A DNA stretch of 64,000 bases, from assembly GCF_001542625.1 (NCBI RefSeq), contig NZ_CP016279.1:558001-622000 (forward strand), given 5' to 3'. Shown here piece after piece: positions 49,193-51,455 of this stretch. Both the position numbers and the translations under genes were made by a program. The stretch comes from Streptomyces griseochromogenes. Its GTDB lineage: Bacteria > Actinomycetota > Actinomycetes > Streptomycetales > Streptomycetaceae. Positions within the stretch are counted from its first letter, which is position 1; the number at the start of each line of letters is the position of its first letter. The notes under the pieces are model-generated. The model was not told the origin of the DNA and ran no database searches. It saw only the letters and a program-made list of their open reading frames with translations.

Positions 49193-50341
49193 ATGAATGC
49201 GACGGAGACCACGGTCGGCATCGGCGGTGCCGCCGAGAGCACCGACATGGTGCTCAACATCGGCCCCCAGCATCCGTCCACGCACGGCGTGCTGCGGCTC
49301 AAGCTGGTGCTGGACGGGGAGCGCATCCTGCACGCGGAGCCGGTGATCGGCTACATGCACCGGGGCGCGGAGAAGCTCTTCGAGGCGCGCGACTACCGGC
49401 AGATCATCATGCTCGCCAACCGTCACGACTGGCTGTCGGCGTTCTCCAACGAGCTGGGCGTGGTCCTCGCCGTCGAGCGGATGCTCGGCATGGAGGTCCC
49501 CGAGCGCGCGGTGTGGACGCGCACCCTGCTCGCCGAGCTGAACCGGGTCCTGAACCACCTGATGTTCCTCGGGTCGTACCCGCTGGAGCTGGGCGGGATC
49601 ACGCCGGTGTTCTACGCGTTCCGGGAGCGCGAGGTGCTCCAGAACGTCATGGAGGAGGTCTCCGGCGGGCGCATGCACTACATGTTCAACCGCGTCGGCG
49701 GCCTCAAGGAGGACCTGCCTGCCGGGTGGAGCGCACGCGCGCGTGCCGCCGTCGCGGCGGTGCGCTCCCGTATGGACGTCTTCGACGACCTGGTGCTCGG
49801 CAACGAGATCTTCCGCGGGCGCACGCGGGGCGTGGGGGCGCTCACGCCCGAGACCGTCCACGCCTACGGCGTGAGCGGGCCCATCGCGCGCGCCTCGGGC
49901 GTCGACTTCGACCTGCGCCGCGACGAGCCGTATCTGGCCTACGGAGAGCTCCAGGACACGCTGAACGTCGTCACCCGCGGCGAGGGCGACTGCCTCGCCC
50001 GGTTCGAGTGCCTGCTGGAGCAGACCCACAACGCGCTGGACCTCGCCGACGCCTGCCTGGACCGGCTCGCCGAGCTGCCGCCCGGACCCATCAACCAGCG
50101 GCTGCCCAAGGTGCTCAAGGCGCCCGAGGGCCACACGTACGCGTGGACCGAGAACCCGCTCGGCATCAACGGCTACTACCTGGTCAGCAAGGGCGAGAAG
50201 ACCCCGTACCGGCTGAAGCTGCGCTCGGCGTCGTACAACAACATCCAGGCGCTGACCGAGCTGCTGCCGGGCACGCTGGTGGCGGACATGGTGGCGATCC
50301 TGGGGTCGATGTTCTTCGTGGTCGGGGACATCGACAAGTAG
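49193..50341 (+). CDS. nuoD: NADH-quinone oxidoreductase subunit D, orphan paralogue
   Basis: This 382-residue NuoD/49-kDa subunit begins with the family core MVLNIGPQHPSTHGVLRL. It has HRGAEKL (Arg57) and GGRMHYMFNRVGG, and ends ILGSMFFVVGDIDK. NuoD lines the quinone pocket with NuoB in complex I. No other nuo gene is nearby, so this is an extra copy, as known for nuoD2 of Streptomyces. It converges on a MidA/NDUFAF7-like methyltransferase gene 16 bp away, whose mitochondrial relative modifies the equivalent subunit. Start ATG 49193. Confidence 0.93.
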   Translation: MNATETTVGIGGAAESTDMVLNIGPQHPSTHGVLRLKLVLDGERILHAEPVIGYMHRGAEKLFEARDYRQIIMLANRHDWLSAFSNELGVVLAVERMLGMEVPERAVWTRTLLAELNRVLNHLMFLGSYPLELGGITPVFYAFREREVLQNVMEEVSGGRMHYMFNRVGGLKEDLPAGWSARARAAVAAVRSRMDVFDDLVLGNEIFRGRTRGVGALTPETVHAYGVSGPIARASGVDFDLRRDEPYLAYGELQDTLNVVTRGEGDCLARFECLLEQTHNALDLADACLDRLAELPPGPINQRLPKVLKAPEGHTYAWTENPLGINGYYLVSKGEKTPYRLKLRSASYNNIQALTELLPGTLVADMVAILGSMFFVVGDIDK

Positions 50342-50357
50342 GACAGGCCCGGGCGTC

Positions 50358-51455
50358 CTAGGGGAGCGGGTCCGCAATGCCCACCGGCTGGAGCAGCCAG
50401 CCGAAGTCGCCGAGGCCACCGGAAGCGGTGAGTTCGGCGGCCTCCCCGGTACTCGCGAGAGCGCGTACGTAGGCCGAGGGGTCCTTGGAGGCGAGCGCGA
50501 GCGGGGGGCGTGCGCCGGTGAGCTCCAAGGTGTGCAAGGCGGCGCGTTGCGTGAGCAGGCGCGCCGCGGGGAGTGCGCACGCTGTGCCAGGAGGTGTCCG
50601 AGCGTGGTCGGGCGCGGTGCGGGCTGTGCCCGAGGGCGTGCGCGCCGTGTCCGCCGACGTGCACGCGGCCGCGCACGCGTCCAGCGCGACGTGTGCCGTG
50701 ATGTCGCAGGACCCGTCCGGCGCGGGCGCCGTCTCGCGCCCCTCCCGGAAGCCGGTGAGCGTGCCGAACGGGGGGCGCGCGTCCGCGGTGTGGGCGTAGT
50801 CCACGGCCACCGCGAGCCCCCGCGCCACCCGGTCCACGGCCGCCGCCCACGCCAGGTCCCTGGGCAGCCCGATCTCCGCGCGCAGCCCCTCCTCGGCCGG
50901 CAGCGGCCACCACCGCGCCAGCCAGTCCGCCTCCGCGCCCGACACGGGCTCCCCGAGAGCCTCGGTGCCGTCCGCCGCGACGAGCACCAGCCGGGGCACA
51001 CCCGCCGGGTCCACCTCGGCGACGTCGACCGGCACGTTGTCCAGCCACTCGTTGGCGAACAGCAGCCCGGTGATCTCCCGCGGGGGCTCGCTCAGCCAGG
51101 TGATCCGCTCGTCCAGGCCGTCCGGACGGCCGGCGAGCTCGACGGCGTACCCGCGCGCGCGGGCGGCCACGTCGGCCGGCAGGGCGGCGAGCACGCCGCC
51201 GACCAGTTCACCGTGCCCGGCGCCCAGGTCCACGAAGTCCAGCGTCCGCGGCCGCCCGAGCGCCTCGTCGACCCGGCACAGCAGCCGGGCGATCGCGTGT
51301 GCGAACAGCGGGGACGCGTGCACGGACGTTCGGAAGTGACCGGCAGGGCCCTCGGGCCGCCGGTAGAAGCCGTCCGGCCCGTAGAGGGCCTCCTGGGTCG
51401 CCGCACGCCAGCCGCGTCGCTCGCCGCCGCCCTTTGACCTCGCACCATCCGTCAC
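50358..51455 (-). CDS. class I SAM-dependent methyltransferase, MidA/NDUFAF7 family
   Basis: This 365-residue protein matches the DUF185/Methyltransf_28 family. It has the SAM motif VDLGAGHGEL (75-84), LLFANEWLDNVPVDV and AVDYAH, and the N-terminal start region FYRRPEGPAGHFRTSV. NDUFAF7 of this family dimethylates an arginine of the complex I subunit NDUFS2. A Thr/Ala/Pro-rich insert with repeated TAxTPxGTA lies near 275-305. The start is GTG 51455. It faces nuoD2 tail to tail. Confidence 0.88.
   Translation of the reverse strand: MTDGARSKGGGERRGWRAATQEALYGPDGFYRRPEGPAGHFRTSVHASPLFAHAIARLLCRVDEALGRPRTLDFVDLGAGHGELVGGVLAALPADVAARARGYAVELAGRPDGLDERITWLSEPPREITGLLFANEWLDNVPVDVAEVDPAGVPRLVLVAADGTEALGEPVSGAEADWLARWWPLPAEEGLRAEIGLPRDLAWAAAVDRVARGLAVAVDYAHTADARPPFGTLTGFREGRETAPAPDGSCDITAHVALDACAAACTSADTARTPSGTARTAPDHARTPPGTACALPAARLLTQRAALHTLELTGARPPLALASKDPSAYVRALASTGEAAELTASGGLGDFGWLLQPVGIADPLP

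Follow-up and report, generated by a model that had tools for sequence, protein, structure and literature searches.

A 64,000-nucleotide stretch of the genome of Streptomyces griseochromogenes (positions 558001 to 622000 of a single 10.76-Mb contig; hereafter the window) raises the question why a second gene for subunit D of NADH-quinone oxidoreductase (complex I), nuoD2, lies next to a gene for a methyltransferase of the DUF185/MidA/NDUFAF7 family. NDUFAF7 dimethylates Arg85 of NDUFS2 early in the assembly of complex I and probably stabilises the NDUFS2-NDUFS7 step (accessible part of PMC3829151). An earlier note on this DNA had proposed that the two genes encode an enzyme and its substrate, or an assembly pair for a complex I variant, and this proposal gains support from the co-occurrence of the genes, from their linkage and from an arginine in NuoD2 that is a threonine in the canonical NuoD1. 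Our reading, to which we give a probability of roughly 0.8 from sequence comparison and from analogy with known systems, is that NuoD2 supplies subunit D to a second complex I of 11 subunits, Nuo2, and that its DUF185 neighbour is a dedicated methyltransferase which would dimethylate NuoD2 at Arg57.

The nuoD2 gene occupies positions 49193-50341 of the forward strand of the window, from an ATG at 49193 to a stop codon ending at 50341, and encodes 382 residues. Its product passes the cut-offs of PF00346 (234.9 bits, cut-off 24) and of NCBIfam PRK06075 (374.6, cut-off 360) and stays below that of the strict NuoD equivalog model TIGR01962 (387.1 bits vs 459.35); its N-terminal TVGxG...GPQHP also appears in the consensus of a 22-sequence alignment. 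The gene for the methyltransferase, which would depend on S-adenosylmethionine (SAM), lies on the reverse strand at 50358-51455 (365 residues), with a spacer of 16 bp (50342-50357) from stop codon to stop codon, so that the tail-to-tail arrangement described in the earlier note is confirmed. Its product matches PF02636 with 70.1 bits (cut-off 23.3), and this is the only match to the family in the whole genome. An AlphaFold2 model of the protein (predicted local distance difference test score 90.8) matches COG1565/DUF185 structures and MidA (MidA 5ztz, E 5.1e-18, template modelling score 0.73; 4g67, E 1.0e-20), with the next other methyltransferase at only E 2.5e-4. The segments ANEWLD and VDYAH align with ANEYFD and IDYGH of 1zkd, respectively, and the columns that are invariant across 25 actinomycete copies include Glu136, Leu138, Asp139, Asp219 and Tyr220, such that the motifs with Glu136, Asp139, Asp219 and Tyr220 may be taken as the putative active site. 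At residues ~266-292, the protein carries a low-complexity ARTPSGTARTAPDHARTPPGT insertion, which the 24 other copies in the alignment lack or have in shorter form, and the confidence of the model is low there.

The codon of the predicted methylation site, Arg57, lies at 49361-49363 of the forward strand, in the motif HRGAEKL. As the earlier note had it, NuoD2 keeps this arginine: it aligns with that of HRGTEKL in two 49-kDa chains (9f5x, 8ba0), and thus with NDUFS2 Arg85, and with Thr64 of Thermus Nqo4 (HTGFEKT), residue numbers being counted along the alignment. However, retention of HRGxEKL alone proves little, because E. coli has this arginine in unmethylated form, whereas symmetric dimethylarginine is found in the Paracoccus, Pichia, bovine and human enzymes (accessible part of PMC3750175). 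E. coli, which was among 14 control genomes, gave no PF02636 match. What is telling, as far as aligned residues can tell, is that the arginine is found in NuoD2 only, with threonine in the canonical NuoD of the same genome (HTGIEKN). The genome has two NuoD genes, and because NuoD1 has threonine, the sole DUF185 enzyme adjoins the only arginine-bearing NuoD. After removal of five duplicate NuoD2, three duplicate NuoD1 and three frames shorter than 200 residues, the position was Arg in 90/90 non-redundant NuoD2 rows and Thr in 17/17 NuoD1 rows (17 genomes). The same rows have Trp (90/90) and Tyr (17/17), respectively, at the position of Trp80 (codon 49430-49432, forward strand), which stands at the place of the quinone-binding tyrosine of Thermus Nqo4 (Tyr87). 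Both Arg57 and Trp80 were also present in all 80 loci of a named set, the best 80 of 577 confirmed matches, which shares at least one genome with the class survey described below.

The earlier note had also envisaged that the two genes might turn out to be separated in most genomes and not to co-occur, but the opposite was found. In a survey of the class (246 actinomycete genomes, each at least 90% complete), the first count gave NuoD2 in 95 genomes, PF02636 (by Pfam) in 84 and NuoH2 in 58; NuoD2 was counted as full-length matches separate from NuoD1, among the matches listed, to E 5e-64, so that more diverged NuoD2 may have escaped. A profile search in 35 selected genomes of the survey, including 15 of the 151 NuoD2-negative ones, added the methyltransferase in four genomes (G094, G188, G190, G246), while in eight other NuoD2 genomes the enzyme was again not found. 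The 15 NuoD2-negative genomes gave one strong match (G136), one weak match (G093, E 7e-4) and none in 13. The corrected tally thus reads 87 genomes with both genes, eight with NuoD2 only, one with the methyltransferase only (G136) and 150 with neither. Fisher's test returns p = 4e-51 for the Pfam-only table and 7e-56 for the corrected one, though these values overstate the certainty and are not true probabilities, because the survey genomes are related and not independent samples. Both genes vary together throughout five of the seven families inside which the presence of NuoD2 varies (f7, f19, f20, f28, f34); in the other two, f39 and f40, they do not do so in every genome.

Two further samples agree with this. 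Among the 100 closest-sampled genomes, which overlap the class survey in part and of which some are only 72-82% complete, 86 have both genes, two NuoD2 only (G050, G090), three the methyltransferase only (G028, G089, G097) and nine neither. For the genus itself, which accounts for 61 of these relatives, NuoD2 was found in 60, PF02636 in 59 and NuoH2 in 58, with the pair present in the absence of NuoH2 in G008 and G046. In the named set, the methyltransferase gene is present at 76/80 loci, and the other four run into a contig end at most 205 bases after nuoD2.

The genes are physically linked as well. Eighty of the 83 pairs found with Pfam lie on one contig, every one of them within 11 kb, and the remaining three are on different contigs. 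The neighbourhood is therefore conserved across actinomycetes, though not in the tail-to-tail order: of the 80 pairs on one contig, 59 have the methyltransferase gene upstream on the same strand, 17 are convergent and four divergent, so that the convergent layout with 16 bp is a local arrangement. In the window, the pair is flanked by folate genes (FolB, Pterin_bind) on one side and by DUF2520, panC, FAD enzyme, QRPTase and pantothenate kinase genes on the other, and homologues of these genes border it in many of the loci read. This opens up the explanation that the two genes merely share a housekeeping neighbourhood, from folate to pan/nad genes, and are lost together by one deletion. We consider this very improbable. 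Order and strand differ among lineages, yet both genes stay; they share their fate even across insertions of 2-11 kb; and both are kept even where they are ~19 kb (G038) or 2.97 Mb (G012) apart. Moreover, position does not explain the match between the enzyme and the one NuoD that has arginine rather than threonine.

Where, then, are the partners of NuoD2? The earlier note had called this nuoD an orphan, which is correct for its location, but not for its function, since other genes of the complex lie ~220 kb away on the same contig. This cluster (L021) comprises nuoA2, B2, C2, H2, I2, J2, K2, L2, M2 and N2, with nuoC2 between B2 and H2 (PF00329); M2 and N2 were assigned from their position and similarity rather than from a family scan. 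No D, E, F or G gene was found in it, and the genome holds no NuoD beyond NuoD1 and NuoD2. From the gene content, NuoD2 would be the D subunit that the cluster is missing, and together they would make 11 subunits without an NADH module. In another family (G096), the methyltransferase gene and nuoD2 are on a contig that breaks off inside nuoN2, where the contig with nuoA2 to nuoM2 starts; the two contig ends overlap exactly over 127 bases, and therefore the pair abuts nuo2 there. All 58 NuoH2 genomes of the survey have NuoD2.

A few further features of these loci may be mentioned. NuoC2 (L021 6174-7457) has a Pro/Ala/Glu-rich low-complexity C-terminal tail of ~270 residues after the NuoC domain. 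Divergent beside nuo2 in G096 is a NuoF-like gene (L165 8307-9677; 40% to NuoF1), a possible input module. The third PF01058 match of the S. griseochromogenes genome (G000:C1:6166064-6166420, L020), in a 372-residue frame, is by its position no member of a nuo cluster.

In the alignments, NuoD2 and NuoB2 are connected by a reciprocal residue switch. In Yarrowia, NDUFS2 carries the dimethylated arginine (Arg121) and NDUFS7 a threonine (Thr122); in Thermus, Nqo4 has the threonine and Nqo6 an arginine (Arg83), and the two arginines occupy the same space beside cluster N2 (accessible part of PMC8042128). In our genome, NuoB1 has Arg75 (AGRVSQK) and NuoB2 has Thr92 (SGTVTDK). Because the simple gene caller, which is suited to high-GC genomes, overlooked genes in low-GC loci, NuoB2 loci were also read by tblastn. 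For the alignment, 76 NuoB rows were selected by their Cys-Cys motif, and three frames without the motif were set aside (two NuoB2, with Thr by eye, and one spurious frame). The rows show Thr for NuoB2 in 64 genomes and Arg for NuoB1 in a small sample of four genomes, without exception, and the four N2 cysteines are present in 76/76. By these residues, the main complex I is of the Thermus type (Arg in B, Thr in D) and Nuo2 of the mitochondrial type (Thr in B, Arg in D) within the same genome. Together with the co-occurrence, the switch leads us to predict that the Nuo2 subunits form one complex.

The mechanism that we envisage follows the known enzymes. The DUF185 protein would be an arginine methyltransferase of the MidA/NDUFAF7 kind and would dimethylate Arg57 of NuoD2, presumably in the symmetric form and most likely by the reaction of NDUFAF7, before or during the assembly of NuoB2 with NuoD2. 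The modified Arg57 would extend to iron-sulfur cluster N2 in NuoB2 and fill the place taken by NuoB's own arginine in the organism's ordinary complex I; it might in this way let B2 and D2 assemble, and tune the cluster. Gene identity, co-occurrence, physical linkage and the B/D residue switch are the observations behind this proposal, and the fold of the enzyme is that of a predicted model.

Several findings weigh against our reading. The sequence of the methyltransferase is distant from that of the proven enzyme, with a match to the MidA homologue in the Protein Data Bank at only E 1.9e-4. The eight survey genomes with NuoD2 but without the methyltransferase all retain Arg57, so that the idea that the arginine is lost wherever the enzyme is lost had to be rejected (8/8 keep it); the NuoD2 of these genomes is diverged (38-47% identity) and they have no NuoH2. 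There are also genomes with a single gene of the pair, namely G136 in the survey and G028, G089, G097, G050 and G090 among the relatives, although completeness is only 72-82% in four of these five relatives and G028 is split into 1300 contigs. In six NuoD2 rows, HRG is replaced by HRS, and two of these have the methyltransferase. The replacement occurs in 4/8 rows without the enzyme versus 2/82 other rows (p 4e-4), an enrichment that we do not count as evidence because all six cases belong to one family (f35). Furthermore, of the quinone-site residues, NuoD2 has the histidine (His31, Nqo4 His38) but not the tyrosine, and with Trp80 in its place it is uncertain whether Nuo2 reduces quinone. As to G136, its methyltransferase gene (L105) has pan/nad-type neighbours, as usual, and is close to the end of a contig, so that NuoD2 may be in an assembly gap.

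The distant sequence and the eight genomes that keep Arg57 without the enzyme would also fit a DUF185 protein that is an assembly factor dedicated to NuoD2, which it would bind and assist in joining NuoB2, and that methylates either another residue or nothing at all. The same co-occurrence and linkage would follow from such a role. However, the model retains the fold of a SAM methyltransferase, a mere chaperone has no obvious need of an invariant Glu136, Leu138, Asp139, Asp219 and Tyr220, and the gene is linked to the one NuoD of this genome that bears the target arginine. We therefore regard a pure assembly role as unlikely and prefer Arg57 methylation of the D subunit of Nuo2.

A last point on the opposing side is that 37 of the 95 NuoD2 genomes in the survey have no NuoH2. 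NuoD2 therefore cannot always serve a full Nuo2 complex, and dependence on the full complex everywhere is rejected. This could mean that NuoD2 serves as an alternative to NuoD1 in the main, 14-subunit complex I, and in several loci that we read a remnant of B2, C2 and I2 does follow closely behind the main nuo operon. We give this explanation very little credence, however, because NuoB1 Arg75, which is Thr92 in NuoB2, and NuoD2 Arg57 would put two arginines in one place, and every NuoH2 genome has NuoD2. In the NuoD2-negative survey genomes, where diverged NuoB2 was not searched for, there was no NuoB2 match below E 1e-51. That NuoD2 is used alone in the genomes without NuoH2 is likewise rejected, since 36 of the 37 (all but G246) have a second, NuoB2-type NuoB match.

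What these genomes appear to have instead is a Nuo2 without its membrane arm. Their NuoH matches number one in 35 genomes, two in G086 and four in G104, whose locus has two NuoH2 pieces. We read 31 of the 37 arm-less loci, leaving out G133, G224, G276, G310 and G317. B2, C2 and I2 are found in 28 of them, and in the other three (L153, L156, L180) a contig end cuts the locus off, either within B2 or C2 or behind one of them. A2 occurs only in L155 and L156, and because NuoH2 pieces remain in L155 only, this locus looks like loss in progress. In complex I, an N-terminal segment of NuoI (TLRTMT...QYP type) lies along the membrane. This segment is missing in 25 of the 26 arm-less NuoI2 found by the double-cluster pattern, the exception being L155, and is present in 7/7 NuoI2 read from NuoH2 genomes; two NuoI2 missed by the pattern (L183, L193) keep both cysteine motifs, and the part of them that aligns shows no such segment. 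All 53 NuoD2 with NuoH2 retain the quinone histidine, which is lost in 8/37 NuoD2 without NuoH2. The eight survey genomes that lack the methyltransferase are all arm-less, while the other 29 arm-less genomes retain it.

Genes resembling those of 2-oxoacid:ferredoxin oxidoreductase stand in 20 of the 31 arm-less loci read. In our genome, too, korAB-like genes are near nuo2, with two-component genes in between (two sensor kinases and an apparent response regulator; L021 919-4862 and L173 15643-18000). In the pair at L154, the alpha chain passes the TIGR03710 cut-off and the beta chain scores 251.9 against a TIGR02177 cut-off of 261.9; the beta chain of our genome scores 248.0 on the same model. 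From these neighbours, the electrons of Nuo2 probably come from ferredoxin, which would be reduced by the 2-oxoacid:ferredoxin oxidoreductase encoded near nuo2. We lean towards the view, which rests on gene content and motifs, that in many actinomycetes Nuo2 has lost its entire membrane arm and persists as a soluble NuoB2-C2-D2-I2 electron carrier with clusters N2, N6a and N6b, with the methyltransferase mostly kept and with a neighbouring 2-oxoacid:ferredoxin oxidoreductase as the probable source of its electrons. The shortened NuoI2 (e.g., L163 10458-10829) reaches 39 bits on the delta-subunit model TIGR02179 (cut-off 60), and arm-less NuoI2 might thus also act as a KorD-like ferredoxin subunit; on this model, our genome's full NuoI2 has the same score.

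Other genes near the pair in the window may be listed briefly. A histidine kinase and response regulator pair (51574-53520) adjoins the methyltransferase gene, and homologues adjoin the pair in several relatives (L023, L024, L027-L029, L040). Two bPH_2-domain genes lie at 47336-49326; the one nearest nuoD2 is on the other strand and overlaps its 5' end if the longest start is taken, and bPH_2-like genes (by eye) stand between NuoD2 and the methyltransferase in other families, e.g., L026, L037, L046 and L049. A protein encoded at 42612-44501 resembles the lysylphosphatidylglycerol synthetase part of LysX/MprF, below the cut-offs of both models.

The question on which the pair bears is whether the dimethylated arginine beside N2 has its role in assembly, in the potential of the cluster or in catalysis. 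Separating the role of the methyl mark from that of the arginine has been left to future work (accessible part of PMC8042128). If our reading is true, both solutions exist in one cell: the main complex I does not have the target arginine, whereas the second complex has it together with an enzyme of its own. One should therefore be able to delete the methyltransferase and leave the main complex I unaffected, and to do so in a tractable laboratory organism. In the arm-less relatives, nature would have separated the N2 site from the proton pump, and these relatives, if they are what they seem, would show that the arginine methyl mark serves the N2 site itself and not proton pumping.

How does this compare with known systems? 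The closest are NDUFAF7 with NDUFS2 in humans and MidA with NDUFS2 in Dictyostelium, which share with our pair the Pfam family and the fold of the SAM methyltransferase, a target arginine in HRGxEKL beside cluster N2, and a threonine at the switch position of the partner NuoB/NDUFS7. They differ in that the predicted enzyme here is dedicated to a paralogue, the main complex I of the same cell being without the target arginine, in the low sequence similarity, and in the Trp at the Tyr87-type residue. In Streptomyces, nuoA2, B2 and H2-N2 have been described as one operon with nuoD2 elsewhere (PMC8388888, PMC3765725), and the accessible parts of these two papers do not name nuoC2, the methyltransferase, the residue switch or the korAB-like neighbours. 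Our search of the open-access literature gave, among the papers listed, no report that links nuoD2 to a DUF185/MidA/NDUFAF7 methyltransferase, nor one of an arm-less module. Thus, the separate nuoD2 was already known, and what we add is the link to the methyltransferase, apparently dedicated to the second complex I, and the pruning to an apparent soluble core. An 11-subunit complex I without the NADH module is otherwise known as the NDH-1 of cyanobacteria and the Fpo of archaea, and Nuo2 shares with these the subunits A-D and H-N and the absence of E, F and G, but its D gene is unlinked and comes with its own methyltransferase. The main complex I of S. griseochromogenes, with Thr in NuoD1 and Arg in NuoB1, is like that of Thermus thermophilus; in contrast to Thermus, however, the Thermus type and the mitochondrial type here stand side by side in one genome.

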